From: Crocinitomicaceae bacterium | GTDB taxonomy: Bacteria > Bacteroidota > Bacteroidia > Flavobacteriales_D > Crocinitomicaceae | Reading direction: 5' to 3' | Length of the DNA: 48,044 nucleotides | NCBI GenBank assembly: GCA_014762645.1 | Contig: JABURP010000097.1 | Location: 1 to 48,044 of the forward strand | Shown: piece after piece, positions 7,369 to 31,223 of the stretch | Numbering within the stretch: position 1 is the first letter of the stretch | Layout: each line of letters opens with the position of its first letter | Notes under the pieces: model-generated | Told to the model about the DNA's origin: nothing | Database searches by the model: none | The model's input: only the letters and a program-made list of their open reading frames with translations | Translations under genes and position numbers: made by a program

Positions 7369-7408
7369 GTTGATAATTGCTTCTTTGTCTCAGGTTTACC
7401 GGGGAATT

Positions 7409-12633: not shown

Positions 12634-12639
12634 ATTGAT

Positions 12640-13770
12640 TTATTGTCCTAAGTATTCCTTAACCGCAGTGCAAATGTAATTCAATTGTTCATTATCCAAT
12701 TCTGTGTGCATGGGAAGTGAAATCACCGATTTACAAAGTTTATTCGTAACTGTAAAATCGTCATCATTATAGCGCTCAGCGTCATAAGCCTCCTGTGAAT
12801 GTAGTGGAACAGGGTAGTAGATCATTGCTGGAACTCCTTTTTCCCGCAGAAAGTTTTGCATCACAAATTGGTTAACACCATCTATTTTAAGTGTATATTG
12901 ATGAAATACATGGTCCGAATTTGGGTTCATAGCAGGTGTAATAACACCTTCTATTTGACTAAAAAACTCATTGTAATATTGTGCAGCAGCTTGTCGCTTA
13001 GCAATATATTCATCCAGTTTTCTCAGTTTTATTCTAAGCACCGCTGCCTGAACAGAGTCCAGTCTTGAATTTACGCCAATACGGTCGTAGTAATATCGTT
13101 CACCCATACCGTGATTTACAATTGACCTTATCTTTGTGGCAAGTGCATCATCATTTGTGAAGAGTGCACCTCCATCTCCATAGCATCCCAGGTTTTTTGA
13201 TGGAAAAAAAGAAGTGGTACCAATAATTCCCATTGTACCATTCTTTTCCGTTTTTCCATTACTGAACGTATAAGATCCGCCAATAGCTTGCGCATTGTCT
13301 TCAACGACATGTATATGATGTTCATGAGCAATAGCTAGAATTTCTTCCATATTAGCTGCCTGACCAAAAAGGTGCACGGGAATAATAGCTTTTGTTTTAG
13401 GTGTGATTGCAGCTTTGATAGCTTCCACTGAAATGTTGAATGTATCGGGGTCAACATCCACTAAAACATGTTTTAAACCAAGTAAACCTACCACTTCAAC
13501 TGTAGCAGCAAAAGTGAAGTCTGAAGTAATTACTTCGTCACCAGGCTTGAGGTCCAGCGCCATCAAAGCAATTTGAAGTGCATCCGTTCCATTTCCACAA
13601 GGAATAACGTGTTTAACACCCAGATATTTTTCCATTTCTTCTTGAAAAGCCTTGACATCAGGCCCATTTACAAAGGCAGATGATCCAATAACTTCTAAAA
13701 CTGCGCGGTCTACTTCTTCTTTGATCTCCTCATATTGAGTTTTTAAGTCGACCATCTGAATTTGCTTCAT
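12640..13770 (-). CDS. DegT/DnrJ/EryC1/StrS aminotransferase, WbpE-like
   Basis: A PLP-dependent sugar aminotransferase of 376 residues, the usual family length. The PLP lysine is predicted as Lys192 in FFPSKNLGCYGDGGA; VEDNAQAIGG at 156-165 contains the aspartate that contacts the pyridine nitrogen, and GNGTDAL at 59-65 binds phosphate. WbpE-type members aminate the 3-keto intermediate of UDP-GlcNAcA. It is the first gene of the operon; the 98-base gap upstream is shared with a divergent gene and should carry the operon promoter, though I see no perfect -7 element for it. Confidence 0.92.
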   Translation of the reverse strand: MKQIQMVDLKTQYEEIKEEVDRAVLEVIGSSAFVNGPDVKAFQEEMEKYLGVKHVIPCGNGTDALQIALMALDLKPGDEVITSDFTFAATVEVVGLLGLKHVLVDVDPDTFNISVEAIKAAITPKTKAIIPVHLFGQAANMEEILAIAHEHHIHVVEDNAQAIGGSYTFSNGKTEKNGTMGIIGTTSFFPSKNLGCYGDGGALFTNDDALATKIRSIVNHGMGERYYYDRIGVNSRLDSVQAAVLRIKLRKLDEYIAKRQAAAQYYNEFFSQIEGVITPAMNPNSDHVFHQYTLKIDGVNQFVMQNFLREKGVPAMIYYPVPLHSQEAYDAERYNDDDFTVTNKLCKSVISLPMHTELDNEQLNYICTAVKEYLGQ

Positions 13771-13868
13771 TCTATTGTTCGTTTTAAATGGTGTAATGAG
13801 TGTGCGAATATAACCAATAATCTACTGTGTTGCGTGTTAGTTACGGGTGCATTTTGTAATTTTGTAAA

Positions 13869-14615
13869 ATGAGATTTTTTTCAATCCTACTCTGTTTTAT
13901 TTCCTTCGTTGGTTTTAGTCAACGTAATTTGAAGGATGCCAGTATTAACACTGTTATATCAGCGGTTAGTTATAAATTTAACTTCACTTCGGGTGATATC
14001 AGAGACCTGTGGGGATTTAATCACGAAATTGGCCTTAGTGTTGACAACAAGTTTAAGAACAATTTTACCCTGGGATTAACGTCTGGATTTATTTTTGGGA
14101 ATCAATTCAAGAACTATAACATTTTTGAGGGGGTGATTAATGAATATGGAACTGTAACCAGTATGAATGGCAACCCTGCTGATGTACTTTTTCTAATGCG
14201 TGGAATGACTGCCAATATTAATGTGGGATTTGTGTGGAGTCGCCTGGGTAACAACCCGAATTCAGGCTTATGGATTCAGGCCGGTGCGGGTTTTTTAATG
14301 CATAAAATCAGAATAGAAAGTTTATATGATGATGTGCCGCAATTAGAAGGTGATTACAGAAAAGGTTATGACCGACTTCACATGGGATTTTCTACCCGTG
14401 AATTTATTGGTTATCTCTTTCAGGCGGACAGACGGTTTTTAAATTTTTATGCGGGATTTGAATTCATTCAAGGGTTCACAGAGAATCAACGAAACTATAA
14501 CTTTGATCTTGAAGGCCCGGATCCTGGAATTAAACAAGATTTTATCTGGAGTGCGAAGGCAGGTTGGTTAATCCCAATTTATAAACGTAGAGCCAAACAG
14601 ATTTATGTAGATTAG
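13869..14615 (+). CDS. hypothetical exported protein, possible outer-membrane beta-barrel
   Basis: A 248-residue protein with a signal peptide (MRFFSILLCFISFVGFSQ). The mature part is rich in alternating aromatic/polar strands (for example NFTLGLTSGFIFG, SGLWIQAGAGFLM, LNFYAGFEFIQGF) and glycine turns, which suggests a small beta-barrel. No named family is recognised. It precedes waaA by 4 bases and is probably co-transcribed with it, suggesting an outer-membrane role. A perfect TAATTTTG sits at 13857-13864, so close to the ATG that a transcript from it would be nearly leaderless. Confidence 0.7.
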   Translation: MRFFSILLCFISFVGFSQRNLKDASINTVISAVSYKFNFTSGDIRDLWGFNHEIGLSVDNKFKNNFTLGLTSGFIFGNQFKNYNIFEGVINEYGTVTSMNGNPADVLFLMRGMTANINVGFVWSRLGNNPNSGLWIQAGAGFLMHKIRIESLYDDVPQLEGDYRKGYDRLHMGFSTREFIGYLFQADRRFLNFYAGFEFIQGFTENQRNYNFDLEGPDPGIKQDFIWSAKAGWLIPIYKRRAKQIYVD

Positions 14616-14619
14616 CGGG

Positions 14620-15825
14620 ATGAAGTTTTTCTACACACTTGGCGTCAATTTTTACACCCTTGGAGTGCGTATTGCTTCTTTATGGAATCCCAAAGCTCGG
14701 AAATGGGTGGATGGGCGCAGAGATGTGTGGAAGAAACTTGAACAATTTCAACCGAAGAAAAATATCTATTGGTTCCATTGTGCAAGTCTTGGTGAATTTG
14801 AACAGGGTAGGCCCATCATTGAAGAGATTAAATCCCGTCAAAATTGCCAGATTGTTATCACCTTCTTTTCTCCCTCTGGTTATGAAGTTCGCAAAGGCTA
14901 TCGCGAAGCTGATTTGGTTGTTTATTTACCCAAAGATTCAGCAAGTAACGCGCGTCGATTTATAGATGTCGTGCAACCGGATCATGTCTTCTTCATAAAA
15001 TATGAATTTTGGGCGCACTATATTTTTGAATGTCGGGCAAGAAACATTCCTGTTTATTCAGTTTCAGCACTATTTAGAAGAGATCAGGTGTTTTTTACCG
15101 GTTACGGAGGGTTTATGCGAAAAGTCCTAAAAGAATTTACCAAAATTTTTGTTCAAAATGAATCGTCCAAAGCACTTTTGAATGAAATAGAAATAGAAGC
15201 TATTGTTTCCGGTGACACCAGGTATGATCGGGTAATGAAAAATGCAGAAAAAGTCGTTCAATATGAAGCCATAGAAACATTTTGTCGTGGCGGAAAAGTA
15301 ATGATTTGCGGATCTATTTGGCAGGAAGATCTCGAAGTGATTAAGGATAAAATTGGTGAGTTGGAGGATTGGAAGGTTATTATCGCTCCGCATGAAATTT
15401 CTCCGCGGTTTATTGAAAAAATTAAGCGATCGATCAATTTGAAAAGTATTTGTTATTCGCAAATTGACTCATTTTCAGATGAACGACTATTGATCATTGA
15501 TAATATCGGCATGTTGATGAACCTGTATCAATATGGTCAAATTGCATTTATCGGTGGTGCGTTTAGAACGGGATTACACAATATTCTTGAGCCTGCAGCA
15601 TTTGGATTACCCGTAATTTTTGGGAATAAATACAGCAAATTTCCGGAAGCATACGAGTTCATTGAAAATGGTATTGGTTTTTCCGTAGCCAACAAAAGTC
15701 AATTTTCGGCAGTGCTAGATGAATTAATGAAATCAGATCTTAAGGAGAAGGTAAACCGTTTTATGCATTCCCACACTGGCGCTACTGAAATCGTGTTGAA
15801 TGAGCTTTCTATTTCTGAATCTTAA
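14620..15825 (+). CDS. waaA: 3-deoxy-D-manno-octulosonic acid (Kdo) transferase
   Basis: WaaA transfers Kdo from CMP-Kdo to lipid IVA at the inner membrane, building the lipopolysaccharide inner core. The 401 residues match the family. The N-terminal membrane-associated stretch is followed by HCASLGEFEQGRP, with the family's catalytic glutamate predicted at Glu59; FIKYEFW near 119-125 and the C-terminal GGAFRTGLHNILEPAAFGLP (about 307-326) bind the CMP moiety in GT30 enzymes. It starts 4 bases after the upstream stop. Its 3' end overlaps the convergent cargo gene by 17 bases. Confidence 0.94.
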   Translation: MKFFYTLGVNFYTLGVRIASLWNPKARKWVDGRRDVWKKLEQFQPKKNIYWFHCASLGEFEQGRPIIEEIKSRQNCQIVITFFSPSGYEVRKGYREADLVVYLPKDSASNARRFIDVVQPDHVFFIKYEFWAHYIFECRARNIPVYSVSALFRRDQVFFTGYGGFMRKVLKEFTKIFVQNESSKALLNEIEIEAIVSGDTRYDRVMKNAEKVVQYEAIETFCRGGKVMICGSIWQEDLEVIKDKIGELEDWKVIIAPHEISPRFIEKIKRSINLKSICYSQIDSFSDERLLIIDNIGMLMNLYQYGQIAFIGGAFRTGLHNILEPAAFGLPVIFGNKYSKFPEAYEFIENGIGFSVANKSQFSAVLDELMKSDLKEKVNRFMHSHTGATEIVLNELSISES

Positions 15826-17116
15826 ACCTTTTCTGCTCGGTGAGTGTTGTGACACTAACAATATAAACACCGGATGCGAGTTGATCCAGATTGAGCCCAA
15901 TTTCTGACATCTCTCGATCAAAATTCAGAGGCTCAACTGCCATCTTGCCGTTGAGGTCATAAATAAATATTTGACCCGATTTTTCTTCCAGACCCTTTAT
16001 GATATGATTTCCGTCAGACCTGCTAAGATGAATAGAATGAAGATCGTTTTCTATTGTAATTGAACGCGAGTATTCATTCTTTCCATTCATATCTACACTC
16101 CGCAATCGATAGTAATTAATTTCACTTGATGTTTCGTGCATAAAGTTGTAATCAATGATATTATTCGAACTAAATGCCGCTTCAACTCTCCCAATATCTT
16201 TATAGCTGTGACCGTCAGTAGAATGTTCAATGATAAAGTGGCTGGAGTTTGCTTCAGAAATTGTACTCCAGGTCAAGGTGTTAATATTGTCTTCAGCTGT
16301 CCCATTAAAATCACTTAATTCTACAGCAAGAATGGTGGCGTACGTCAATGTAATATCATCTATTGCGACGGAAGGATCTGTTCCAAAACCGTTGCCATCA
16401 TTTGACCAGTGAAATGCAATACGGACATTCGGGTTATTATCTGCTCCGGCTGGGAATATTAAGTTTTGTGCGGTCCAGTAGCCTTGTTCTCCTCCAGCAC
16501 ACGCTTGTTGAGTTTGAGGGCCGCAGCAAATGCCAAAAAAAGCACACCAAGAGGCGTCTAAACATGAACAACACTGAGATGCTGATACATTTCCTCCGGT
16601 AAACGTGGTCCAACTCGAACCATTGTCCAGACTATATTCTACCCAAAATCCATCATCTCCCTGAGCTGCTATATAGTTGAAATTTAATTCAATCATACTG
16701 TAGCCTGAACAGTCAATTGTGGGTGAAATTGCACGTTTATTTGTGCGGTTAGCAGTACCGGACTCATCATATGCAGCTCCGCAGTCTGGCGTACCACATA
16801 ATCCTCCAATTGCTGAAACATGTAAGGAATTGTTGCCTCCAGGACAAGCGGATCCACAGTTACCTGCAGCATTTCCGCATTCTTCACCACTCACATACCA
16901 GTTATTAGCTGAAGAGCCATTAACACCAGTTGTAGCTTGGGTCCAGGTTCCTAAATCACCTGTAAAACCATTGACAGAAGTTCCCCTGGCAGCACCGGTA
17001 CCAAATGTTTCACTGGCAAAAATAGTCTGTGCATGAGCATTTTGGATGCTAAACATCAAAAGGGACGATATGGTGATCATTTCGGCTAATCTCATGATTG
17101 ATAAGGCCTTAATCAC
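15809..17116 (-). CDS. cysteine-rich T9SS cargo protein with type A sorting domain
   Basis: A 435-residue exported protein. The signal peptide ends near AHAQ (residue 30); an internal ATG at 17095 is an alternative start. The mature N-terminal half is a beta-sandwich-like module with about 13 cysteines concentrated between residues 75 and 210, including CCSC and FFGICCGPQ. A fibronectin-like region follows (about 265-350), and the last 75 residues (ending GVYIVSVTTLTEQKRFKIQK) have the type A Por secretion tail pattern. It is predicted to be exported by Sec, then secreted by T9SS and attached to the surface. I cannot assign a substrate. A terminator separates it from gdhA upstream. Confidence 0.82.
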   Translation of the reverse strand: MIKALSIMRLAEMITISSLLMFSIQNAHAQTIFASETFGTGAARGTSVNGFTGDLGTWTQATTGVNGSSANNWYVSGEECGNAAGNCGSACPGGNNSLHVSAIGGLCGTPDCGAAYDESGTANRTNKRAISPTIDCSGYSMIELNFNYIAAQGDDGFWVEYSLDNGSSWTTFTGGNVSASQCCSCLDASWCAFFGICCGPQTQQACAGGEQGYWTAQNLIFPAGADNNPNVRIAFHWSNDGNGFGTDPSVAIDDITLTYATILAVELSDFNGTAEDNINTLTWSTISEANSSHFIIEHSTDGHSYKDIGRVEAAFSSNNIIDYNFMHETSSEINYYRLRSVDMNGKNEYSRSITIENDLHSIHLSRSDGNHIIKGLEEKSGQIFIYDLNGKMAVEPLNFDREMSEIGLNLDQLASGVYIVSVTTLTEQKRFKIQK

Positions 17117-17127
17117 TATATAATACG

Positions 17128-17161
17128 AAAAAAAGGTGACCCTCGTTAGAGAATCACCTTT
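17128..17161 (-). terminator. intrinsic terminator of gdhA
   Basis: Read on the minus strand, an 8-bp stem AAAGGTGA/TCACCTTT with a 14-base loop (which can itself pair CTC with GAG) is followed by a run of seven T. It lies about 43 bases after the gdhA stop, in the right orientation to end gdhA transcription before the cargo gene start at 17116. Confidence 0.85.
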
Positions 17162-17203
17162 CCACTTATTATTTGGTTCTTTATTTTATTATCTGGTAAA
17201 AAA

Positions 17204-18613
<1,410 letters not shown>

Positions 18614-18756
18614 TTATTTAGAAAACCCGGCAGAATGATAAATGTTCGATTAATGTAAAAAATACCGGGTTAAATGGTTTGTAACTCAACTTTTTACTCG
18701 TTTGAAACGTCTTGTGTTTACTGGTGTTTAATGTTTTATTTTCTTATCTTGCAGTG

Positions 18757-21700
18757 ATGCTTACAAAAATTACACGTTTAGCCATATTTTTAGTGGCAAG
18801 TCCGACTATTATGTTTGGGCAAGAGATGGGCCATGAGTCCGGAGTATATAAATTTCAGGAAAACAAAGGCCAATGGCCGGATCATGTCAACTTTAAAGCG
18901 GATGTGCAAGGCGGAAATATCTGGCTGGAGAAAAACCGCATTATCTACCATTTTTATCAAAGGGATGATTTTCACCATCACCTGGATGAAAACCTGAAAC
19001 AATTTGATACCGAAATCAAAGAACATTTGATTTATGCGAGGTTTCTAGGGTCAGCGGAGAGCCCGGTAATTGAAAAACGCGACGAAAATTCAGAATATTA
19101 CAACTATTTTAAAGGGAATGACCCTGCCAAATGGGCGAAAAATGTGAGGTCCTATGGTGCGGTGAATTATAAAGAGCTTTATCCCGGTGTTGATTTGAAT
19201 TTCTATGAAAAAAACGGTCAGCTTAAGTACGAATATGAATTGGATCCAGGAGCAGATCCCTCACAAATTCAATTGAAGTATTACGGAGCACTTAGTGTTG
19301 AGCAGTTGGCAAATGGAGATGTTAAAATAAAAGGTCCCCTGGGCGAGATAATTGAAGAAAAACCATTCGCTTATCAGATTAAAGATGGAAATGTGCTACC
19401 TGTAAATTGTGATTTCAAGGTGTCTGATGATTATGTGCTAAGTTTTGAGCTTGGGGAGTATGACCCTACATTAAAATTAGTCATTGATCCCGTGCTGGTG
19501 TTTGCAACCTATAGTGGATCCGTTACAGATAACTTTGGAATGACAGCTACATATGCCTATGATGGATCTGCTTATAGTGCAGGAATGATTTACGGAAACG
19601 CTTATCCTGCACCGGCTGCTGCCTGGAACAATACGCCTAATATTACTGTGGCCAGTACTGGCGTTGCAACTACAGATGCATTCGTATCAAAATACTCTGC
19701 AGACGGTACAACTATGATTTGGACCAATTTTGTTGGCGGCGGAGATAATACACAAGGAACAGAAACTGTGAACTCAATGATCTGTGATTCACTGAACAAT
19801 ATATATTTGTTTGGAGTTACCTCTAGTCTGGATTTTCCGTTAATGAATGCTGTTCAAACTTCTCATGCTGGAGGATCAACCCTGAACGTGCAATTCAATG
19901 GAACTAATTTTGGGACTGTTGGAACTGACATTTATGTAACAAAAATCAGTGCAGATGGGTTAAGTTTAATGGGATCAACCTATATGGGTGGGGCAGAAAA
20001 TGATGGCGTCAATTATAATATAAATGGCGGCATGTACAATTCAGTTAACTCGTACGATTCACTTACCTCGAATTACGGTGATCAATTTAGAGGGGAGATA
20101 TATCTAGACAATAATAACAATGTGATAATTGCTTCCAGTACCCGGTCAACAGACTTCCCCATTGTAAACGGTTTTCAAAATAGCAATGCTGGACAGCAGG
20201 ATGGGGTTGTATTTAAATTGACTAATGACCTGTCATCATTGCTTTGGTCCACTTATTTTGGTGGAGCAGAAAATGATGCTTTGTATGGGGTTACAGTAAA
20301 TTCCATGAATGATGTGGTAGTTTCTGGCGGAACTTCTTCTTTGAATATTCCTGGGACAGTGGGCGCAGTTGCACCTAATTATTTGGGTGGGAAAACGGAT
20401 GGTGTCATTGCCGTAATTTCTTCAAGCGGTACTAATTTGATGTCAGCAACGTATATAGGTTCTACAGGAGGTGATCAAACCTTTATGGTGAAGACAGACG
20501 ATAATAACAACGTCTATATTGTCGGCCAAACAGGTCCAAATATGCCTGTCTTAAACGCTCCATATTTTAATGCGGGAAGTGGTCAGTTTATTACAAAATT
20601 TTCACCAGACTTATCAGGGATTTTGTATTCAACTGTTTTTGGAAGTGGTTCCGGTAATAGTGATATTTCTCCTGCAGCCTTTGCATTGGATCAATGTGAA
20701 AATGTGTATGTCAGTGGTTGGGGAGCTAATATTTTACAATCGACCCCTATGAGTGGTATGCCGGTTACTTCTAACGCTTATCAACCAACTCCTGCTAATG
20801 GGTTTGACTTTTATTTATTTGTACTGGAGAGAGATGCACAGGATATTATATACGGAAGTTATATTGGAGGGAGCCAGGCGAACGAACATGTTGATGGTGG
20901 AACGTCTAGGTTTGATGATAATGGTGTTTTATACCAATCCGTTTGTGGTGGCTGTGGTGGCAATAGTGATTTTCAGACTACTCCAGGAGCGTGGTCCAGT
21001 CAGAATTTAAGTACGAATTGTAACAATTTAGTTTTTAAGTTTGATTTTGAATCAGAAAAGGCCCTGTTTCAGATGAGTCAAAATGAAGGGTGTGCTCCAG
21101 TTGTTATTGATTTGACAAATCAAAGTAGTGATACATTGGGCTCTAGTTGGATTCTTCCACCTCAAGCCAATGTCATTACCGGTGGAATTCACCCACAAAT
21201 TAGTTTTGATGTCCCGGGTACTTATGATATTTCACTTGTGGTTTCTGATCCTTATTGTAGCGTGGATGATACACTGACCCAAACAGTGAATATTTATCCA
21301 CCACCACCCGTGGTCGCAGGTATTTCTGCAGATACTTCATTATTATCTTATGTTACGGTAAATCTTTGGGTAGATGCCGCAGGGTCTGCATCTAATTTCA
21401 CCTGGGCGGATAATATTAATTTTACTAATCCCATTGCCTCTGGTCCGAATGATTCAACAATAGCAGTAAACCCTACAGTTACAACAACATACTACGTTTT
21501 AATTTCAAGTGGATCTTCGCTATGTGATGTGATTGATTCGGTTACTGTTTTTGTAGATCCTAATATTTCCATAGGTACAGATCAGAATTTGAACATGCTG
21601 GTTTATCCCAATCCGTTTAACGACAAAATTGTTGTTGAAAGTTCATTAGAAATTGAATCGATTCAAGTGCTTGACGAAATGGGTAGAGAGGTTCTAATAA

Positions 21701-21822
21701 TTAATGAGGTTCAGGGTAAACAAGAGTTCCTCGATCTTTCTAAAATATCAAAAGGCGTGTATGTCGTAAGGGTAATCAACCATAACGGCAGCATACATGA
21801 GAAAAAAATTATTAAAAAATAA
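18757..21822 (+). CDS. SBBP-repeat surface protein with type A T9SS tail (paralogue 1)
   Basis: I place the start at 18757 rather than 18712 because it gives a normal signal peptide (MLTKITRLAIFLVASP, cleaved near FGQ); the longer form puts a second hydrophobic stretch in front. About 1,021 residues. An N-terminal module beginning ENKGQWP resembles the DUF7948 domain found before SBBP repeats; beta-propeller-like SBBP repeats with D-A-F-V-S-K-Y and WSTYFGG patterns follow, with a QSVCGGCGG motif, a PKD-like domain, an Ig-like segment ending VDSVTVFVD, and the type A sorting tail (YPNPFND ... GVYVVRVIN). Predicted to be a giant surface or secreted protein; ligand unknown. Its stop overlaps the next ATG by one base. 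Confidence 0.88.
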   Translation: MLTKITRLAIFLVASPTIMFGQEMGHESGVYKFQENKGQWPDHVNFKADVQGGNIWLEKNRIIYHFYQRDDFHHHLDENLKQFDTEIKEHLIYARFLGSAESPVIEKRDENSEYYNYFKGNDPAKWAKNVRSYGAVNYKELYPGVDLNFYEKNGQLKYEYELDPGADPSQIQLKYYGALSVEQLANGDVKIKGPLGEIIEEKPFAYQIKDGNVLPVNCDFKVSDDYVLSFELGEYDPTLKLVIDPVLVFATYSGSVTDNFGMTATYAYDGSAYSAGMIYGNAYPAPAAAWNNTPNITVASTGVATTDAFVSKYSADGTTMIWTNFVGGGDNTQGTETVNSMICDSLNNIYLFGVTSSLDFPLMNAVQTSHAGGSTLNVQFNGTNFGTVGTDIYVTKISADGLSLMGSTYMGGAENDGVNYNINGGMYNSVNSYDSLTSNYGDQFRGEIYLDNNNNVIIASSTRSTDFPIVNGFQNSNAGQQDGVVFKLTNDLSSLLWSTYFGGAENDALYGVTVNSMNDVVVSGGTSSLNIPGTVGAVAPNYLGGKTDGVIAVISSSGTNLMSATYIGSTGGDQTFMVKTDDNNNVYIVGQTGPNMPVLNAPYFNAGSGQFITKFSPDLSGILYSTVFGSGSGNSDISPAAFALDQCENVYVSGWGANILQSTPMSGMPVTSNAYQPTPANGFDFYLFVLERDAQDIIYGSYIGGSQANEHVDGGTSRFDDNGVLYQSVCGGCGGNSDFQTTPGAWSSQNLSTNCNNLVFKFDFESEKALFQMSQNEGCAPVVIDLTNQSSDTLGSSWILPPQANVITGGIHPQISFDVPGTYDISLVVSDPYCSVDDTLTQTVNIYPPPPVVAGISADTSLLSYVTVNLWVDAAGSASNFTWADNINFTNPIASGPNDSTIAVNPTVTTTYYVLISSGSSLCDVIDSVTVFVDPNISIGTDQNLNMLVYPNPFNDKIVVESSLEIESIQVLDEMGREVLIINEVQGKQEFLDLSKISKGVYVVRVINHNGSIHEKKIIKK
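19622..19724 (+). repeat. near-identical tract shared with the downstream paralogue (copy 1)
   Basis: This 103-base tract matches 22714-22816 at 99 positions; all four differences are third-position synonymous changes. The sequence on both sides differs at many more synonymous positions although the proteins remain similar, so the tract looks like a local homogenisation. Confidence 0.8.
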
Positions 21823-24800
21823 TGGGTAGACAATTTAAAATAGGATGCGGTAGAATACAGGCAAGCTTAATGACAGCCTTGATCCTCTTTGTGTCTTCTT
21901 TTGTCTATTCTCAAGATATGAGTCATGAGCCAGGCATCTACAAATTTCAGGAAAACAAGGGGCAATGGCCCGGTCACGTGAATTTTAAAGCAGATGTCAG
22001 TGGTGGAAATATTTGGTTAGAACAAACCCGTATTATTTACCACTTCTATCAAAGAGACGACTTTCATCACCATTTGGGCGAAAATTTAAAAGAATTTGAT
22101 GCTGAGGTTAAAGAACACTTGATTTATGCTAAGTTTCTTGGGTCCAACGAAAATCCATCATTGGAAAAACTATCCACATGCCCTGAATATTACAATTACT
22201 TTATTGGCAATGATAAATCCAGGTGGGCAAAGAACGTAAAGGCATATAAGGAAGTGGTGTATAAAGACCTTTATCCAGGTATACATCTAACATTTTTTGA
22301 GAAAGAAGGACAGCTAAAATATGAATATCAACTTGATCCGGGAGCTGACCCAAGCCAAATTCAATTAAAGTATTACGGAGCAATTAAAGTGAAGAAAACC
22401 AGAGAGGGGAGTATTGTTGTAAAAGGCCCTCTTGGAGAAATAATCGAAGAAAAACCTTATGTCTACCAAATAAAAAACGGAAAAGTAATAGAAGTTGAAA
22501 GCGAGTTTGAATTGTCAGATGATCAGGTCCTGTCTTTTAATATAGGAGAATATGACCCATCTCTGAAATTGGTCATTGATCCGGTGCTGGTATTCGCAAC
22601 ATATAGCGGTTCGGTTACAGATAATTTCGGGATGACAGCAACCTATGCGTATGACGGTAAAGCTTATAGTGCGGGTATGATTTACGGTAATGCATACCCT
22701 GCACCTGATACATCCTGGAACAATACGCCTAATATTACTGTGGCCAGCACTGGCGTTGCGACTACAGATGCATTCGTATCAAAATACTCTGCGGACGGCA
22801 CAACTATGATTTGGACAAATTTTGTTGGTGGAGGAGATAACACTCAAGGGACTGAGACTGTTCATTCATTAATTTGTGATAAATCAGATAATATTTACAT
22901 GTATGGTGTGACGTCGAGCTTGGATTTTCCATTGATGAATGCCTTTCAGTCTTCACATTCCGGGGGGGCTTCGCTCAATGTACAGTTTAACGGAACAAAT
23001 TTTGGTTCTGTAGGAACAGACATATATGTAACAAAGATTAGTGCTGACGGGTTAAATTTAATGGGTTCAACCTATATAGGTGGTTCTCAAAATGATGGTG
23101 TAAATTATAAAGTAACATCTGGAAGTTATAACTCGGTAGCTGCATACGATTCTTTAACAACGAATTACGGAGATCAGTTCAGAGGGGAAATAATGTTAGA
23201 TTCTTTAAATAACATCATGATTGCCTCTTGTACGCGTTCAACGGACTTTCCAACTCAAACCCCTTTTCAGGCAGCTAATGCTGGGCAACAGGATGGGGTA
23301 GTATTTAAACTTTCTTCGGATTTTTCCAGTCTACTTTGGTCCTCCTATTTTGGTGGGTCACAAAATGATGCTTGTTACTCGGTAAAAATTGATTCTAGTT
23401 ATAATATTCTCATGGCAGGTGGAACCAGCTCAAGTAACCTACCTGCTACAATCGGGGCACTGACGCCTACTTATCAGGGCGGAAAAACAGATGGATTTGT
23501 CGCCAAAATCACTCCTGATGGAACCACGTTGATCAGAACAAGTTACATAGGTACGTCAGTTTACGATCAAACAATATTCGTAGAAACTGACCGCTGGAAT
23601 AACGTTTATATTGTTGGTCAGTCTTTGGGGAGTATGCCCATATTTAATGCACCCTATTCAAATCCTGGAAGTAGTCAGTATATCATGAAATTGACGCCTG
23701 ACTTAACGGCCATTGAATATTCAACGGTGTTTGGAAATGGTAATGGTCAGATTAACATATCGCCTTCTGCTTTTCTGGTTGATGTTTGCGGAAATGTTTA
23801 TGTATCTGGTTGGGGAGCGAATATTCTACAAAGTGTTCCTTTAAACGGTATGCCAACAACTACAGATGCTTTTCAGCAAACATCTCCAAATGGGTTTGAC
23901 TTCTACTTGTTTGTATTGGAGCGTGATGCCCAAAGTGTTTTGTATGCAAGTTATATGGGAGGAAATCAAGCTGATGAGCATGTGGATGGTGGAACTTCAA
24001 GGTTTGACAAATTTGGAGTAGTATATCAATCCGTATGTGGTGGCTGCGGTGGAATCAGTGATTTTCCAACAACGGCTGGTGCCTGGTCAAGTCAAAACCT
24101 AAGCTCCAATTGTAATAATCTCATATTTAAATATGATTTTGAAATTGTTCCGGTTGCTGAGTTCCTAATATCTGACCTTGAGGGCTGTGCCCCATTCACG
24201 TTTATTCTGGATAATGAAAGTAATGATACGATTAACTCTGTTTGGACATTTCCACCAGAAGCAATTGTTGTTCAGGGGGGCGTAAATCCTCAGATCATGT
24301 TCGAGTCACCCGGTCAGTACGAAATAATTCTTTCCATCACAGATACCATTTGTAATTTACAGGATACTGCCTTGAAGATTATTAATGTGTATGATTCGTT
24401 AAACCTTAATGTGTCTAATGATACGGTGTTGTGCAACAGCATCTCGATAGATATTTGGGCAAATTCTAACGGAACAGCCACTTCTTTTAACTGGTATGAT
24501 GATCCTGGGCTTACCAATCAGATTAATGCAGGAGGTCTCGATTCAGCAATTACGGTTAATCCAGTAGTAACAACAACTTATTACGTGCAGGCTACGAATG
24601 GATGGTCATTATGTGATAAAATCGACTCAGTGACCATTTATATGTCGGATGGTGCCATGTCTATTGATCCCGCAGATAGTATTTGTGTGGGTGATACCAC
24701 GCAGTTAATGGCTCATAACTTATTACCTTCGCAATCAATTACTTACACATGGTCGCCTACACAGGATATCGTTCAAACGGATGACTCCATTGCCTGGGTA

Positions 24801-25421
24801 AATCCACCATCATCACAGTATTTTTATGTGACTGGTGTAACAAGTTCAGGATGTGTTTTTACAGATTCAGTTTGGGTTCATGTGGATTGGATCGACCCTG
24901 CTACGGTATATGCGACTGCTACTCCGGATTCTATTCCGGAAGGCGGTAGCTCTGTACTTGAAGCCTTTCCAAATGATCCTTCATACACATATCTCTGGGC
25001 GCCTCCTTTAGGGCTTTCTTCAAATATAGGACAAACAGTCACTACCTCGGTAGAACAAACGACCACTTACACTATGCTAATGTCGGGAAATGGATGTACA
25101 CGAACTGCTACGGTAACGGTGTATGTTCTGGAATTCATCTGTGGTGATATCTACATTTTTATCCCATCTGCTTTTACACCTAATGGAGACGGTGAAAATG
25201 ACATGGTTTATGTTAGGGGACAAAATCTTGAAGAAATCGATCTCAAAATATTTGATCGTTGGGGAGAATTAGTTTTTGAAGCCACTGATCAGTCACAGGG
25301 TTGGGATGGGACATTCAAAGGAAAACCACTGGATCCGGATGTGTATGTTTATCACCTAAAAGCAGTCTGTTTTGATGGGCAGGAAACATTGATTAAAGGA
25401 AATATTACACTCTTGAGATAA
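21822..25421 (+). CDS. SBBP-repeat surface protein with type B (CHU_C/gliding) T9SS tail (paralogue 2)
   Basis: A 1,199-residue paralogue of the preceding gene, collinear from the signal peptide (ending FVYSQ, residue 31) and the ENKGQWP module through the SBBP repeats, the QSVCGGCGG motif, the PKD-like domain and the Ig-like segment ending SVTIYMSD (about 24650). After that point the two proteins diverge. This one carries an extra region of about 140-150 residues with Ig-like WSP features and ends with a gliding motility-associated (type B, CHU_C) domain: IPSAFTPNGDGENDMVY, then FDRWGELVFE and GWDG. Type B cargo commonly depends on a PorP/SprF-family partner, and such a gene starts 3 bases downstream. 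Confidence 0.9.
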   Translation: MGRQFKIGCGRIQASLMTALILFVSSFVYSQDMSHEPGIYKFQENKGQWPGHVNFKADVSGGNIWLEQTRIIYHFYQRDDFHHHLGENLKEFDAEVKEHLIYAKFLGSNENPSLEKLSTCPEYYNYFIGNDKSRWAKNVKAYKEVVYKDLYPGIHLTFFEKEGQLKYEYQLDPGADPSQIQLKYYGAIKVKKTREGSIVVKGPLGEIIEEKPYVYQIKNGKVIEVESEFELSDDQVLSFNIGEYDPSLKLVIDPVLVFATYSGSVTDNFGMTATYAYDGKAYSAGMIYGNAYPAPDTSWNNTPNITVASTGVATTDAFVSKYSADGTTMIWTNFVGGGDNTQGTETVHSLICDKSDNIYMYGVTSSLDFPLMNAFQSSHSGGASLNVQFNGTNFGSVGTDIYVTKISADGLNLMGSTYIGGSQNDGVNYKVTSGSYNSVAAYDSLTTNYGDQFRGEIMLDSLNNIMIASCTRSTDFPTQTPFQAANAGQQDGVVFKLSSDFSSLLWSSYFGGSQNDACYSVKIDSSYNILMAGGTSSSNLPATIGALTPTYQGGKTDGFVAKITPDGTTLIRTSYIGTSVYDQTIFVETDRWNNVYIVGQSLGSMPIFNAPYSNPGSSQYIMKLTPDLTAIEYSTVFGNGNGQINISPSAFLVDVCGNVYVSGWGANILQSVPLNGMPTTTDAFQQTSPNGFDFYLFVLERDAQSVLYASYMGGNQADEHVDGGTSRFDKFGVVYQSVCGGCGGISDFPTTAGAWSSQNLSSNCNNLIFKYDFEIVPVAEFLISDLEGCAPFTFILDNESNDTINSVWTFPPEAIVVQGGVNPQIMFESPGQYEIILSITDTICNLQDTALKIINVYDSLNLNVSNDTVLCNSISIDIWANSNGTATSFNWYDDPGLTNQINAGGLDSAITVNPVVTTTYYVQATNGWSLCDKIDSVTIYMSDGAMSIDPADSICVGDTTQLMAHNLLPSQSITYTWSPTQDIVQTDDSIAWVNPPSSQYFYVTGVTSSGCVFTDSVWVHVDWIDPATVYATATPDSIPEGGSSVLEAFPNDPSYTYLWAPPLGLSSNIGQTVTTSVEQTTTYTMLMSGNGCTRTATVTVYVLEFICGDIYIFIPSAFTPNGDGENDMVYVRGQNLEEIDLKIFDRWGELVFEATDQSQGWDGTFKGKPLDPDVYVYHLKAVCFDGQETLIKGNITLLR
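22714..22816 (+). repeat. near-identical tract shared with the upstream paralogue (copy 2)
   Basis: This is the second copy of the 103-base tract at 19622-19724, direct orientation, offset about 3.09 kb, with four synonymous mismatches. It encodes the WNNTPNITVASTGVATTDAF segment and the residues that follow in both proteins. Confidence 0.8.
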
Positions 25422-25424
25422 GGT

Positions 25425-26429
25425 TTGCGGAAGTTAGTTTTTATATCGGTTATGCTGGTTTTGAGCAATAGTTTTGCTCAGGATGTACATTTCTCCCAGT
25501 TTTATATGAATCCCGTTTACCTGAACCCAGCATTGACAGGGAATCATGACTGCGATTACCGATTTTCTGCAAATCAACGAACGCAGTGGAAATCAGTTTC
25601 GAGGCCTTATAATACATTTGCCTTATCTGCTGAAAACAAATCTGGGTGGATCCTACCCAATCTATATCATGCGGTAAACTTGTTTCATGATGTTGCCGGA
25701 GATGGTGATTTTAGGACGTTAGAATTCAATATTTCTTCGGCGTATCAAATTTATTTGGATCACGATTCTGTCCATAGCGTAACACCGGGTATTCAAATTG
25801 GTGTTAATCATAGGAGCATTGATTTTACTGCATTGTCATGGGATAATCAGTATAACGGATATTATTATGATGCTGGGTTAGGTTCAGGAGAAAATTTTGG
25901 TGTTAGTAGGCGTACGGGATTTAATGCAGCAGTTGGTGCTATTTATGCCTGGAGACCTGAGTACAGGAAAGAAATTGTCGCAGGTGTGGGTTGGTTCAAT
26001 ATCCCCCAAATGAAACAAAGTTTTTATGGAGATGACCTAATTAAGAGGGATATGCGTTTTGTCATACACGCAAAAGGGGTTTGGCCGTTAAATTTTGAAT
26101 GGGATCTTCAGCCCGGAATAATGACACAGTTTCAGGGGAAGTACAAGGAAATTATTTTTGGTGCAAACGCACGTTATTTGATCATAGATAAAAGGGGAGA
26201 ATTTATTGCACCCTACGCCGGAGTGTGGATGCGAAATAAAGACGCAGCTTACTTGACAGCCGGAATCTATTATAACCGTTGGACGGCGGGAATATCTTAT
26301 GATATTAACTTTTCAAAGTTGGTACCAGCAAGTAATTTGAGAGGTGGGTTGGAGTTTTCTGTTCAATACATTTTATGCATATTTAAACCTAAACAAATCA
26401 CACACCGAATTTGCCCGGATTATTTATGA
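25425..26429 (+). CDS. PorP/SprF family type IX secretion outer-membrane protein
   Basis: A 334-residue protein of the PorP/SprF family, outer-membrane beta-barrels that in gliding Bacteroidota help secrete or anchor type B cargo. The family signature DVHFSQFYMNPVYLNPAL lies right after the signal peptide (cleavage near SFAQ), and the C-terminal strands fit a barrel. The start is a TTG at 25425: the first in-frame ATG (25452) would leave only ten residues before the mature end, too few for export. It follows the type B cargo gene by 3 bases and overlaps the next gene, making a cargo-receptor-anchor operon. Confidence 0.93.
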   Translation: MRKLVFISVMLVLSNSFAQDVHFSQFYMNPVYLNPALTGNHDCDYRFSANQRTQWKSVSRPYNTFALSAENKSGWILPNLYHAVNLFHDVAGDGDFRTLEFNISSAYQIYLDHDSVHSVTPGIQIGVNHRSIDFTALSWDNQYNGYYYDAGLGSGENFGVSRRTGFNAAVGAIYAWRPEYRKEIVAGVGWFNIPQMKQSFYGDDLIKRDMRFVIHAKGVWPLNFEWDLQPGIMTQFQGKYKEIIFGANARYLIIDKRGEFIAPYAGVWMRNKDAAYLTAGIYYNRWTAGISYDINFSKLVPASNLRGGLEFSVQYILCIFKPKQITHRICPDYL

Positions 26430-28699
26430 TGCAAATGAAAAAAAAGAGATCAGGTTTTTCTGTGCATTTTGCTTTGCTAATCTTGCAAGCTTTTTTTGTT
26501 ACTAATGTTGTTGGTCAGACCTATGATCAACTCGTGGAGTTTGCAGATCAAAAAATGCAGGAACGCGATTATTTCTATGCCATTAAGAATTATGAGCGCG
26601 CTATGAAGATCGACTCCAATTCGGTTGAAATTTTATGGAAATATGCGGAAGCATTGAGGCATTATAAAAATTATCCAAAAGCTGAACTTTATTATTCAAA
26701 GGTGTATAGCAGAGAAAATGCACGCATCTATAACCGAAGTGTTTTTTGGTTGGCAACCATGCAACAGTACAATGGTAAATATGACGAAGCTCTGGAGACA
26801 TGGAAAACGGCGAAAAAGGTCTATAAAAAAGATCGGGATAGCTATGAATACCTGAAATCGAAACAAATGATTGTTTCTTGCCTTTGGGCCAGACGTGCAG
26901 TGCGAGACACATCTGATTATATTGTTGAACCATTACCACAACCAGTGAATACTAAGAATGCAGAATTTGCCGGTACAATTCATAATAACAAGCTTTATTT
27001 TAGTTCATTAAAGGCAGATTCTATCAACTTTTCTGAAGAGGTTTATACAGCGGATTATTCTATTCAAATCTACTCCGCCGATCAGGAAGACAGTGTTTTT
27101 AATAACGTAATGTTGGAGAAAGATGTGGCTAAAAAAGGGTGGAATAGTGCAAATGGTTCGTTTAGTCCGGATGGTAAACGCTTTTATTTTAGCAGATGTA
27201 ATTCCGCTTATGAATGCAAAATATTTGTCGGAAAAGTTGAGGGAGATAGGATAACGGATATTGATAGCCTTGGAGAGATTATTAATGAACCAGGTTACAT
27301 TAGTACTATGCCACATTGTACAAATGTTGGGGAATATGAGGTGTTGTTCTTTGCGTCCAATATCAACTTTAACTACGGGGGATTAGATATATGGTATAGT
27401 GTAATCAAGGATGGTAACCAATATATGTTACCTAAGAGCCTAGGATCAGATATTAATACACCAGACGACGAAATATGTCCCTTTTATGATACTATAGAAA
27501 ACCGATTGTATTTTTCTTCAAGCTGGTTTCCTGGGTTCGGAGGACAGGATATCTTTTACGTCCAGAATTATAATTTCACTTTTAAGGATCCTGTAAACCT
27601 TGGGTTACCCATAAATTCGTCTAAAAATGATATCTATTATATTATTGATCAGGAAAATGATGTGAGTTATTTTTCATCTAATCGGGAAGGGGTTCAGTAT
27701 GCGAAAAATCCTACCTGCTGTAGTGATATTTTTACAGCCCGTTTGCCAAAAGAACCTGATCCTCCTGATCGCTTTGAGTCATTGGCAGATTTGAATAAGA
27801 AACTACCTGTACGGCTTTACTTTCACAATGACAGACCGGATCCAGATACAAGGGATACGATTGCAAGTATTACCTACATGCAGAGTTATTATAATTATCT
27901 CAAGCTAAAAAAGAAATACAAGAAAGAGTATTCTTCTGGCTTGTCAGGAGATGATGCAGAAGAAGCAAAAGAAGATATTGATGACTTTTTTGTGGAATAT
28001 GTACAACAAGGGGTCATAGATCTGGAAGAGTTCCTGAGGTTACTAGTGATTGAACTTGAAAAAGGATACGAAATTGAAATGTCCATTCAGGGATTTGCCA
28101 GCCCCCTTGCAAAAACGGATTATAATGTGCCTTTGACGAAGAGGCGAATCAGTAGTTTGATTAATTACTTGAGAGAATATCAAGGAGGAGTGTTGAGACC
28201 TTATCTAGATGGTACCGCTCAAAATGGCGGGAGACTCACCTTTGTTGGAAACCCTTATGGTGAGTATACCGCTGATCAACTTATTTCTGATAATCCAAAT
28301 GATGCTAAGAATTCTATTTTTAGTAGAAAAGCAGGTATGGAACGGAGAATTGAGATACAATCGGTTAGCTTGATAACTAAAGATTCGAGTTACGCTAAAA
28401 TGGATTTCTTAAAACAGACTCATGATTTTGGAGCTTCAAAGAAAGGCGATATTTTAACCTGGGAGTTCAAATTTACGAACACGGGTAAGGAGACACTTGA
28501 AGTTACAGATTTGGTTGAGAGTACGGATCACCTGACGTATGAACTGTCACAGTCTGTCTTTGAACCCGGAGAATCTGGCTCAATTCTATTGACCTGGGAT
28601 ACCAGTGAAGCATCCGGAATTACTTATTGTAGATTAACGATACATGCAAACATAAAAGGAGGCAAGCGTGAACTCACACTTACCTCCGAAGTACACTAA
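26426..28699 (+). CDS. TPR-PD40-OmpA-like protein with C-terminal DUF1573-like domain
   Basis: I choose the ATG at 26426, which overlaps the upstream stop as ATGA; ATGs at 26429 and 26435 are also possible, and a TTG at 26411 is less likely. A signal peptide follows. TPR-like helices (about 35-110 of the mature protein) precede WD40-like PD40 strands (GSFSPDGKRFYFSR; IENRLYFSSSWFPGFGGQDI). An OmpA-like domain contains IQGFASPLAKTDYNVPLTKR: the arginine of the peptidoglycan site is present but the aspartate of the usual GHTD is Ser. The last 85 or so residues (HDFG ... FKFTNTGKETLEVTDL) look DUF1573-like. Predicted to be a periplasmic or outer-membrane adaptor for the neighbouring secretion unit. 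Confidence 0.85.
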   Translation: MMQMKKKRSGFSVHFALLILQAFFVTNVVGQTYDQLVEFADQKMQERDYFYAIKNYERAMKIDSNSVEILWKYAEALRHYKNYPKAELYYSKVYSRENARIYNRSVFWLATMQQYNGKYDEALETWKTAKKVYKKDRDSYEYLKSKQMIVSCLWARRAVRDTSDYIVEPLPQPVNTKNAEFAGTIHNNKLYFSSLKADSINFSEEVYTADYSIQIYSADQEDSVFNNVMLEKDVAKKGWNSANGSFSPDGKRFYFSRCNSAYECKIFVGKVEGDRITDIDSLGEIINEPGYISTMPHCTNVGEYEVLFFASNINFNYGGLDIWYSVIKDGNQYMLPKSLGSDINTPDDEICPFYDTIENRLYFSSSWFPGFGGQDIFYVQNYNFTFKDPVNLGLPINSSKNDIYYIIDQENDVSYFSSNREGVQYAKNPTCCSDIFTARLPKEPDPPDRFESLADLNKKLPVRLYFHNDRPDPDTRDTIASITYMQSYYNYLKLKKKYKKEYSSGLSGDDAEEAKEDIDDFFVEYVQQGVIDLEEFLRLLVIELEKGYEIEMSIQGFASPLAKTDYNVPLTKRRISSLINYLREYQGGVLRPYLDGTAQNGGRLTFVGNPYGEYTADQLISDNPNDAKNSIFSRKAGMERRIEIQSVSLITKDSSYAKMDFLKQTHDFGASKKGDILTWEFKFTNTGKETLEVTDLVESTDHLTYELSQSVFEPGESGSILLTWDTSEASGITYCRLTIHANIKGGKRELTLTSEVH

Positions 28700-29429: not shown

Positions 29430-31223
29430 ATGAAAAAAATCTACTTTTTAGCTTCAATGCTATTGTTAGGTTCAGGCGTATCTGCGCAGGTTCAAACACA
29501 ACCTGTTATGCGTGCTGATGCTCAAAACATTGACGCTTATAATAACGAAAGACCGGTAATCACTGGTCAGGATAGAGCACCTGGAGATGTAATTGGAACT
29601 TACCAGGATGATTTCTCAAACCCTGCTAACTGGACAGTTGCTAACAATAGTAACCCAAGTGGTGACTGGCAAATTAACAGTACTGGACCAGGTGTTGGAG
29701 CTGCATTCGCTTCTACAACTGCAGCTAATGGTTTTGCATGGTATGATGCAGATGCTATCGGTGTAGACTTGAGTTCAACTACTGATGCTCAATTGACTTA
29801 CAACACAGTAATGGATTTCTCTGCAAACCCAGCTGTGGCAGTTAGTTTTGAGTCATATTACCAAGAGTACCAAACTTCAGTTTATGTTGAGGTAAGTACA
29901 AATGGTTTAGCAGGACCGTGGACACAGTATGAAGTACATACAGACATCACAGATAACAATGCTTCTGCAAATCCTACATTAGTTAACGTAAACGTTTCAG
30001 CTCAGGCTGGAGGTCAGTCAAACGTTGCTGTTCGATTTAATTATCAAGGAGGATGGGGATGGTTTTGGTCTATTGACGATTTCAAAATGATTGAGGCTTA
30101 CGAGCACGAATTGGAAACTACTTGGGCTCACTTCTCATCAGGAACTGAAACTAATGAGTACTATGCAATTCCAACAACTCAGATCACTGAAATCACTTTC
30201 GGATCATTGGTAACTTCAAATGGTGTTACTACTCAAACAAATGTTCAGATGACAGCTGACGTAAATGCTGGTTCTGAGTATTCTGGTGTTTCTGGACAAG
30301 TAGTTACTTTGAACGAAGCTCAATCAGATTCTTTCTCAATTGAAACTCCTAACGGATGGACTCCATCTGGTGCTGGTGCATATGACCTTGTTGTTTCTGT
30401 AGGATCTGACCAAGGTGAGCAGTTACCTGGAAATAACGACTGGGCACCTGAGTCAATTACAGTAGGTGGAAACATTTACTCAAGAGATGATGGTATTATT
30501 ACTGGAGGATTCTCAGGGTTCATTTCAACACAGGGAGATCCTATCGCAGTAGGTAATACTTTTGAGATTTTCGGCGACATGTCATTCGGACACATTGATA
30601 TAGGATTGACTAGTGCAGCTGCATCAGAAGGTGAATTGATCTATGGAGCTGTTTACAAATGGAATGGTGTAGACAATTTTGACTGGGTTGTTCAAACAGA
30701 GGATTATTCTGTACAAAACGGAGACCTTGGTTCAATCGTATCACTTGAATTACCATTTAATGTTGATGTTTTTGCTGGTGAGCTTTACTTAATTGTTGCT
30801 GGACGTTACACTGATAACGCTTCTTTTGCACAAGCTCAACCAACTCAAGAACAAACAGTATTGGCTGTTCACACAAGTGGATTGCTTGCAGGTGCAGACC
30901 CAAGTGCTATTATCTGTAGAATCAATACTACACCTTCAACAGTTGGTATTGAGGATCCAATAAATGTAACAGGATTGAACATTTATCCTAACCCAGCTGA
31001 TCAATCAACTTTGTTGTCATACAATGTTGTAAACGAAGCTAATGTTGCACTTACTTTGACAGATCTTTCTGGTAAAGTTGTTTACACAGAAAACTATGGT
31101 ACACAAGCTGCTGGACAGTACAATGTAGATCTTTCTACTGCTGAATTGTCTAACGGAGTTTACTTCTACTCACTAACTGTAGGAGAAAGTACTGTAACGA
31201 AGAAATTCGTAGTATCTCACTAG
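29430..31223 (+). CDS. T9SS cargo protein with type A sorting tail, probably abundant
   Basis: A 597-residue exported protein with a signal peptide (MKKIYFLASMLLLGSGVSAQ). A beta-sandwich-like module occupies about 55-220 (DDFSNPANWTV; FSIDDFKM-like WFWSIDDFK), a second beta-rich region follows, and the last 80 or so residues (GLNIYPNPADQSTLLSY to TVTKKFVVSH) form a type A T9SS tail. I cannot name the mature function. Codon use looks more restricted than in neighbouring genes (frequent AAC, GGT/GGA, GCT, TTC), it has its own promoter-like element and a strong terminator, and it stands alone. Together these suggest a highly expressed monocistronic surface protein; the expression level is inference. 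Confidence 0.87.
   Translation: MKKIYFLASMLLLGSGVSAQVQTQPVMRADAQNIDAYNNERPVITGQDRAPGDVIGTYQDDFSNPANWTVANNSNPSGDWQINSTGPGVGAAFASTTAANGFAWYDADAIGVDLSSTTDAQLTYNTVMDFSANPAVAVSFESYYQEYQTSVYVEVSTNGLAGPWTQYEVHTDITDNNASANPTLVNVNVSAQAGGQSNVAVRFNYQGGWGWFWSIDDFKMIEAYEHELETTWAHFSSGTETNEYYAIPTTQITEITFGSLVTSNGVTTQTNVQMTADVNAGSEYSGVSGQVVTLNEAQSDSFSIETPNGWTPSGAGAYDLVVSVGSDQGEQLPGNNDWAPESITVGGNIYSRDDGIITGGFSGFISTQGDPIAVGNTFEIFGDMSFGHIDIGLTSAAASEGELIYGAVYKWNGVDNFDWVVQTEDYSVQNGDLGSIVSLELPFNVDVFAGELYLIVAGRYTDNASFAQAQPTQEQTVLAVHTSGLLAGADPSAIICRINTTPSTVGIEDPINVTGLNIYPNPADQSTLLSYNVVNEANVALTLTDLSGKVVYTENYGTQAAGQYNVDLSTAELSNGVYFYSLTVGESTVTKKFVVSH

Follow-up and report, generated by a model that had tools for sequence, protein, structure and literature searches.

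The 48,044-nucleotide contig JABURP010000097.1 of a Crocinitomicaceae bacterium (Bacteroidota; assembly GCA_014762645.1, 4.23 Mb in 128 contigs) was analysed over its entire length, hereafter the window. It harbors two tandem paralogues encoding large putative surface proteins, copy 1 and copy 2 (also copies A and B, written A and B in the trees), followed by a gene of the PorP/SprF family and a PorE-like gene. Copy 1 ends in a type A and copy 2 in a type B (CHU_C) sorting tail of the type IX secretion system (T9SS). The best explanation overall, which we regard as probable, is a natural change of tail class together with a mosaic history, in a tandem pair lying within a known type of operon. 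The tail types, their ancestral state, the gene order, the mosaic, a second case in another genus and the presence of PorV and SprA were all computed from sequences.

An alignment of the copies bore out a first-pass annotation, made from the DNA letters alone, which had described two collinear paralogues with a common part from signal peptide to Ig-like segment. The shared part comprised signal peptide, DUF7948, propeller and Ig-like segments. It ended near 21553 in copy 1 and 24657 in copy 2, just past the Ig_7 domain of copy 2, and nothing convincing aligned beyond. The sharp divergence proposed at 21558 and 24650 was thus found close to those positions, but divergence before the tail was uneven (see the mosaic history below).

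The two tails were of different types by profile, as had been proposed. That of copy 1 matched PF18962 (Por_Secre_tail; E 5.7e-12, 46.2 bits, cut-off 27) and TIGR04183 (E 8.3e-12, 44.9 bits, cut-off 23), and that of copy 2 matched PF13585 (CHU_C; E 5.5e-17, 62.1 bits, cut-off 27) and TIGR04131 (E 1.7e-18, 66.5 bits, cut-off 35). At E <= 0.01 neither copy matched the tail model of the other; copy 1 also weakly matched the type C tail model NF033708 (20.3 bits, below its cut-off of 40). Past the shared part, copy 2 displayed about 165 extra residues before its type B tail. The Ig_7 profile matched copy 2 only, the aligned counterpart in copy 1 not being recognised.

DUF7948 (PF25778) was found in both copies with more than 233 bits, above the cut-off, and at E <= 0.001 in all 40 selected family members; SBBP (PF06739) was found at this threshold in 22 of the 40. 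The initial description of the pair as SBBP giants held weakly for copy 2, whose propeller scored 22.9 bits (cut-off 20.5), and failed by score for copy 1 (7.2 bits). Despite this score, the structure model of copy 1 (mean predicted local distance difference test, pLDDT, 83.5; predicted template modelling score, pTM, 0.62) clearly displayed a propeller fold at residues 247-765. Its best structural match was the propeller of CylK (PDB 7fh6), predicted to be of the same fold (Z 35.9, root-mean-square deviation 2.4 A, 391 residues aligned, 22% identity). CylK is an alkylating enzyme, but copy 1 showed nothing suggestive of such activity. The label of a 'receptor-like' ectodomain found no backing.

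A homologue of the first 793 residues of copy 2 was present in each of 150 genomes drawn evenly from the 240 of the family. Loci were taken for most, not all, best matches, together with 18 loci from named public contigs. In these loci and the window, 145 open reading frames (ORFs) matched the core over at least 150 residues. The type B tail was scored by motif in orthologue ORFs, and Pfam was run on the 40 selected members. All 105 closed orthologue-group ORFs outside the window displayed the type B motif, and three more were cut at the 3' end. The 105 represent 103 distinct ORFs, since L032/L100 and L033/L190 are each one gene from two collections, and a few genomes give two copies. Locus L033 (CAMDGH010000045.1), titled Chryseobacterium gleum, has the same gene as family genome G041, and its title is probably a wrong label. 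Among paralogues and outgroups the motif was found in 23 of 29 closed ORFs, six further ones being cut; the six closed ORFs without it were one type A case (L138) and five distant ORFs without a recognised motif. Pfam assigned CHU_C to 38 of the 40 members and a type A tail to two, copy 1 and L138.

Both congeners with the gene, G004 and G026, displayed the order dehydrogenase - type B gene - PorP - tetratricopeptide repeat (TPR) gene, with a single copy whose CHU_C tail was confirmed by Pfam, which answers the search for single-copy relatives. A third congener, G042 (93% complete), gave matches only to other DUF7948 branches. Copy 2 is, on these comparisons, the orthologue of the single gene of relatives. 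The type B tail is ancestral and the type A tail of copy 1 derived, because the motif was universal among the closed orthologues and Pfam found 38 CHU_C tails and only two of type A.

No type A-tailed orthologue was found among the matches listed for the 240 family genomes. Among the matches listed to the last 255 residues of copy 1, which came from 155 of the 240 genomes, 11 reached the tail and the rest extended no further than query residue 181. The DUF7948-propeller core found no match at any of the 11 loci concerned. Several of these 11 listed matches aligned from about query residue 54-70, in the Ig-like segment, to the end, with roughly 25-36% identity. It is conceivable that the type A tail was joined at the Ig-like segment, because the combination of an Ig-like segment with a type A tail is frequent. 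A recent donor within the own genome was rejected: of the 129 matches to the 97-residue tail region of copy 1 at E <= 10, one was the query itself and the best of the others was only 30% identical (8.5e-10). Two loci each displayed two Ig-like plus type A tail ends resembling that of copy 1 (L270, 3218-3724 and 7664-8218; L272, 2980-3534 and 7686-8192).

Another tandem pair was found in G059, which belongs to another genus (locus L138, contig C1) and to a different DUF7948 branch. Its first copy (9949-12588, minus strand) has 879 residues and a type A tail (PF18962, E 1.1e-12), and its second (5851-9834, minus strand), 114 bases downstream on the same strand, has 1327 residues and a CHU_C tail (E 2.3e-14). 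The tree required two separate changes for the type A copies of the window and G059, even when only well supported branches were counted, and the G059 pair is a second, independent case of type A first and type B second. In both pairs the type A copy was the first, the shorter and the one with the longer end branch (0.85 versus 0.15 and 0.36 versus 0.06). No PorP of the present subfamily adjoined the G059 pair. Tandem pairs with two type B copies also exist (L041 and L121); in L041, from Thermoflavifilum, positions 9815-17618 hold two tandem copies with the type B motif and then one PorP gene.

The two copies did not share one history over their length. A tree of the whole core (residues 33-765) placed them as sisters with a support of 100/100. 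Residues 28-345 gave the same pairing (100/100) and rejected B with G004 (p-AU 8e-5 in the approximately unbiased, AU, test), whereas residues 450-932 united B with G004 (97/97) and rejected A with B (p-AU 0.023, or 0.009 with G163 added). Trees of 21 rows retained A with B for the front and did not resolve the back.

The split points of the gene were picked after the identity profile had been seen, while the maximum chi-square scan needs no chosen split. With G004 as third sequence, the scan reached 164.7, a value attained by 0/10000 permutations, with a breakpoint at residue 405. To the left of this residue, 126 of 154 informative sites grouped copy 2 with copy 1 and not with G004; to the right, 17 of 165 did so. 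Other third sequences gave breakpoints at residues 405-407 (G039, G020, G163), 429 (G023) and 501 (G026). Four triplets served as controls, two of them built from one set of three genes; three were null and one, G004/G026/G039, gave a weak signal near residue 826 (13/10000). The core-only value of 102 was reached by none of 926 near-neighbour background triplets. Smaller exchanges may be common in this gene, because the highest background triplet reached 55. These triplets and the background pairs were taken from 106 orthologue-group rows, among them duplicated records and a few two-copy genomes. A list excluded 33 loci, which were paralogues, outgroups or the deep branches L189 and L197.

Identities were abnormal in the same sense. 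Copies A and B were 70.6% identical in the N-terminal and 65.3% in the C-terminal part, and none of 1583 pairs of comparable C-terminal identity was as high in the N-terminal part. B and G004 were 47.5% identical in the N-terminal and 84.1% in the C-terminal part, and all 54 comparable pairs were higher in the former. The pair is therefore best read as a mosaic: before about residue 405 the copies appear as sisters, and beyond it copy 2 clusters with its orthologue to the exclusion of copy 1. Of the proposal that a duplication was followed by a swap of sorting signal, a derived type A tail was upheld and a single duplication with ensuing tail swap was not, as the halves before and after this point differ in history.

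An exchange from copy 1 to copy 2 would explain both identity outliers with one event, while the reverse would need an extra replacement in G004. The former direction thus needs fewer events, but it is not settled, because the identities of B and of G004 to third species were both within the normal range. An external donor of the front of copy 2 was rejected, the best match outside the own genome among the 240 genomes searched being 54% identical (G020). A near-identical tract was found within the front half, with 110 of 115 bases the same against 67% overall. Its maximum-scoring segment (28.7) was equalled by none of 5000 codon shuffles, and five control gene pairs scored 7.2-10.8; the tract looks gene-conversion-like and fresher than the front-half exchange. 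The two type B copies of G121 (L122, 102-3818; L123, 4690-7899) were 89% identical in the N-terminal and 69% in the C-terminal part, possibly another sign of front-half exchange.

The four genes look like a single operon, divergent from a glutamate dehydrogenase gene. The stop of copy 1 and the start of copy 2 share one base (TAATG), and the PorP/SprF gene begins 3 bases past the end of copy 2, as had been noted. Its product matched PF11751 with 119 bits (cut-off 22.3) and TIGR03519 with 150 bits (cut-off 90.55). The last gene, initially described as TPR-PD40-OmpA-like, overlaps the PorP/SprF gene by 19 bases. The overlap was confirmed and the domain description was not: the Pfam TPR and PD40 matches were all below cut-offs, no Pfam OmpA match was obtained in residues 440-660 even at E <= 10, and DUF1573 was found above its cut-off at the C-terminus.

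PorE proteins consist of TPR helices, then a propeller, and a C-terminal OmpA-like peptidoglycan-binding domain. The product of the last gene matched NF052230 (PorE; 127.9 bits, curated cut-off 600) and NF053607 (159.1 bits, likewise below cut-off) over residues 28-428, as did all 25 aligned members with both models. Its AlphaFold 2 model (mean pLDDT 80.8) displayed helices at 38-161, strands at 171-444 and an alpha/beta domain, with propeller matches over 165-448. Foldseek and VIA-align returned mostly propellers, chiefly glycosidases; no PorE structure was among the matches listed, which excludes nothing. In phmmer searches of PDB sequences this product matched one designed TPR protein (E 1.5e-4), and PorP gave no match.

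The order type B - PorP - TPR was found in the congeners (L080, L081) and in near genera (L085-L092, L094, L101), the TPR frame being split in two in L089. Among the 94 orthologue loci for which 3.6 kb or more of downstream sequence was available, 25 displayed it (one with a 465-base gap); 14 further loci were too short. The near relative G039 (L084, among the short loci) has a different kind of gene next to its type B gene. Unrelated neighbours in most relatives had been named as counter-evidence; the order did recur in congeners and near genera, but the partner genes mostly do not adjoin the type B gene. Many non-adjacent loci carry instead a gene for a protein of about 359 residues after the type B gene (e.g. 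L095, 5083-6162; L104, 5135-6217). By eye, this protein in the PorP position looks aminopeptidase-like.

PorP and the PorE-like gene appear to travel together, and the cargo gene to be linked to them in part of the family, because in 10 of 10 examined genomes without adjacency the best-matching PorP (33-48% identical) was directly followed by a TPR gene elsewhere in the genome. The own genome contains 58 CHU_C tails, and one of these is found no more than 400 bp upstream of 20 of its 25 full-length PorP genes (two PorP fragments were not counted). Such pairing is therefore ordinary and, in this genome, the rule; three CHU_C-PorP pairs occur on contig 2 and another three on contig 93. One PorV (192.4 bits) and one SprA (2405 bits) were found. 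The two genes following the pair had been taken as its secretion partners; a PorP and PorE-like pair does lie downstream, but PorP would serve copy 2 only, the published route of type A tails being PorV.

Published work assigns the two classes to different routes: in Flavobacterium johnsoniae, PorV serves type A tails, and proteins with a type B tail have a PorP/SprF of their own (PMC12618676). There, a type A tail on SprB turned movement along the gliding track into static anchoring or release, and static complexes were proposed for type B proteins whose genes accompany those of PorP and a PorE homologue; the shuttles of these proteins were argued to be necessary in stoichiometric amount. In Porphyromonas gingivalis, PorE, PorP and a type B protein form a complex, and type A proteins are linked to lipopolysaccharide (PMC9143113).

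We propose that a conserved type B surface protein (DUF7948, propeller and Ig stalk), produced together with a PorP/SprF shuttle and a PorE-like anchor of its own, underwent gene duplication at the front end of the operon. In copy 1, the outer Ig-like stretch would have disappeared along with the type B tail, and a type A tail would have been acquired directly after the Ig_7-like segment; a later exchange between the copies would have affected the N-terminal 400 or so residues. As a result, both would display a similar DUF7948 and first propeller blades and differ in the back of the propeller, stalk and tail. By analogy with the F. johnsoniae tail swaps, PorP would receive copy 2, which would then form a static complex at the surface together with the PorE-like protein. 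PorV would accept copy 1, whose fate would be attachment to surface lipopolysaccharide or release, and no PorP would be consumed in the process. Exit of copy 1 via PorV and retention of copy 2 by PorP and the PorE-like protein are the most likely routes on this analogy. A possible gain is that a second type B copy would compete for one PorP, while PorV is shared; this would be no rule, because tandem pairs with two type B copies exist.

Several known systems resemble the present one in part. Five type B - PorP/SprF - PorE operons were counted in F. johnsoniae, and Fjoh_3952 was found in static foci (PMC12618676). Such operons (e.g. Fjoh_3952-3951-3950) display the same gene set, large type B protein first, but here a type A paralogue precedes the trio and the PorE-like gene carries DUF1573 and falls below the PorE cut-off. 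The SprB-CTD(RemA) and SprB-CTD(AmyB) chimeras likewise carry one passenger with a type B or type A tail, which set gliding track, static anchoring or release; they are laboratory constructs, whereas here the genes are natural neighbours (PMC12618676). The PorE-PorP-PG1035 complex of P. gingivalis, in which the type B protein binds PorP and PorP binds PorE, recalls the copy 2 trio, but no type A paralogue is mentioned in the excerpted part of that source (PMC9143113). Gingipain and haemagglutinin genes are also T9SS cargo genes that exchange coding parts, by domain rearrangement and allelic exchange, but with a conserved C-terminal domain (PMC5266723), while here the front would be exchanged and the tail classes differ. 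No report of a natural change from type B to type A tail was found in open-licence PMC literature, as far as its texts were excerpted.

A plain recent duplication with tail swap and without recombination, copy 1 merely evolving faster and chiefly in its back half, would accord with the full-core tree, in which the end branches were 0.39 (A) and 0.05 (B), and with the relative rates: with G004 as third sequence and outside residues 238-345, unique changes numbered 174 in copy 1 and 38 in copy 2, and in the least clear of five third sequences 104 and 57. It is improbable in view of the maximum chi-square and AU tests and of the abnormally low N-terminal identity of B and G004. In addition, background pairs average 17.5 points lower in the N-terminal than in the C-terminal part, while A and B are 5.3 points higher, an excess matched or surpassed by few of 5565 pairs, led by the G121 copies at 20.4. 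That copy 1 was instead an old or horizontally acquired type A paralogue, which landed beside copy 2 and exchanged front halves with it without any tail swap on the spot, is rather unlikely. Such an origin would agree with the lack of any relative above about 45% identity to its residues 766-932 among the matches listed for the 240 genomes, and with the position of its back half outside the grouping of B with G004; but copy 1 heads the gene row with a one-base overlap, keeps the same domain order to Ig_7 and has unremarkable base composition, all closed orthologue-group ORFs are of type B and no donor was found.

Copy 1 could also be a decaying leftover, its type A tail kept by chance and without separate role. 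Its faster evolution agrees with this, as does its retention of near-invariant back columns, 85 of 91 (0.934) against 91 of 91 in copy 2, the lowest value in the group being 0.933. However, it keeps 155 of 163 core columns near-invariant in the orthologue group (in the front 70 of 72, the same as copy 2), its tail scores above cut-offs, and its 1021-codon frame is still open although synonymous sites are near saturation (at four-fold sites the copies are 13-43% identical, as counted up to residue 932 and without residues 238-345), which makes decay quite improbable. An assembly chimera of two strains or loci, conceivable for one contig of a 128-contig assembly, is hardly credible, as the flanking order agrees with both congeners and the copies differ at 33% of bases, their most similar tract still displaying 5 differences in 115 bases.

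Several points weigh against the tail-class change with mosaic history that we prefer. The whole-core tree unites A and B with full support, so that the mosaic depends on splitting the gene, and the split was chosen post hoc; the back half of copy 1 is a long branch (1.0-1.25 changes per site) with weaker placement and a moderate AU test there, and the one positive control triplet was noted above. If copy 1 predates the divergence of G000 and G004, its loss from the latter has to be assumed. Pairing of copy 2 with its PorP is deduced from adjacency, which 69 of 94 orthologue loci and G039 lack, and the PorE-like product misses the PorE cut-off. The proposed routing is deduced from published work.

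Table 1. Features of the tandem pair and its flanks, in window positions
Feature	Position	Strand	Remarks
Glutamate dehydrogenase gene (by-eye name)	17204..18571	-	divergent flank fixing the locus
Copy 1 (copy A)	18757..21822	+	1021 aa; signal peptide (by eye), DUF7948, beta-propeller, Ig-like segments, type A tail
DUF7948 of copy 1	18853..19494	+	residues 33-246; PF25778 E 4.4e-69
Beta-propeller of copy 1	19495..21051	+	residues 247-765; structure model m2a8ea1508663
Near-identical tract, copy 1	19622..19736	+	partner 22714-22828 in copy 2; gene-conversion-like
Approximate recombination breakpoint	19969		copy 1 residue ~405; maximum chi-square
Type A T9SS sorting tail of copy 1	21601..21813	+	residues 949-1019; PF18962, TIGR04183
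Copy 2 (copy B)	21822..25421	+	1199 aa; same front, further Ig-like sequence, type B tail
Near-identical tract, copy 2	22714..22828	+	partner of 19622..19736
Ig_7 domain of copy 2	24417..24614	+	residues 866-931; PF19081 E 7.6e-11
Type B (CHU_C) sorting tail of copy 2	25158..25409	+	residues 1113-1196; PF13585, TIGR04131
PorP/SprF-family outer-membrane protein gene	25425..26429	+	PF11751 E 3.6e-34; likely shuttle/anchor of copy 2
PorE-like gene	26411..28699	+	TPR-like helices, beta-propeller, alpha/beta domain, C-terminal DUF1573

The coordinates are collected in Table 1. The listed ORF of copy 1 opens at a TTG at 18712, and its length was counted from the ATG. Among 88 testable orthologue loci, 10 displayed the dehydrogenase gene upstream of the type B gene and in divergent orientation, those of both congeners among them. 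A promoter and terminator scan was uninformative: it gave 35 and 7 sites, and shuffled sequences gave 37.3 and 8.3. By DNA comparison within the own genome, copies 1 and 2 were each other's close match, the sole other match being 81 bases on contig 116; in this numbering the window is contig 49. A further type A-tailed protein is encoded nearby at 29430-31223 (PF18962, E 1.4e-11), with relatives of 56% identity in L080 and 36% in L086.

A more general possibility, to which we hold only tentatively, is that the swap from the PorP/PorE route to the shared PorV route is a recurring move after tandem duplication, with the switched copy first and the type B copy second. Front exchange would then keep the exposed end common, one head would be carried on two anchoring systems, and the driver would be escape from one-to-one shuttle stoichiometry. 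Engineered fusions are the source of much that is known about the two tail classes. A naturally occurring pair, in which one gene row combines a single head with two tail classes, would provide a ready-made test, in which evolution did the swap and the single-copy congeners serve as controls. Because a family may switch tail class during evolution, annotators should not assign a protein the tail type of its homologue. Finally, the shared front and separate backs would allow one to ask which part selection keeps common.

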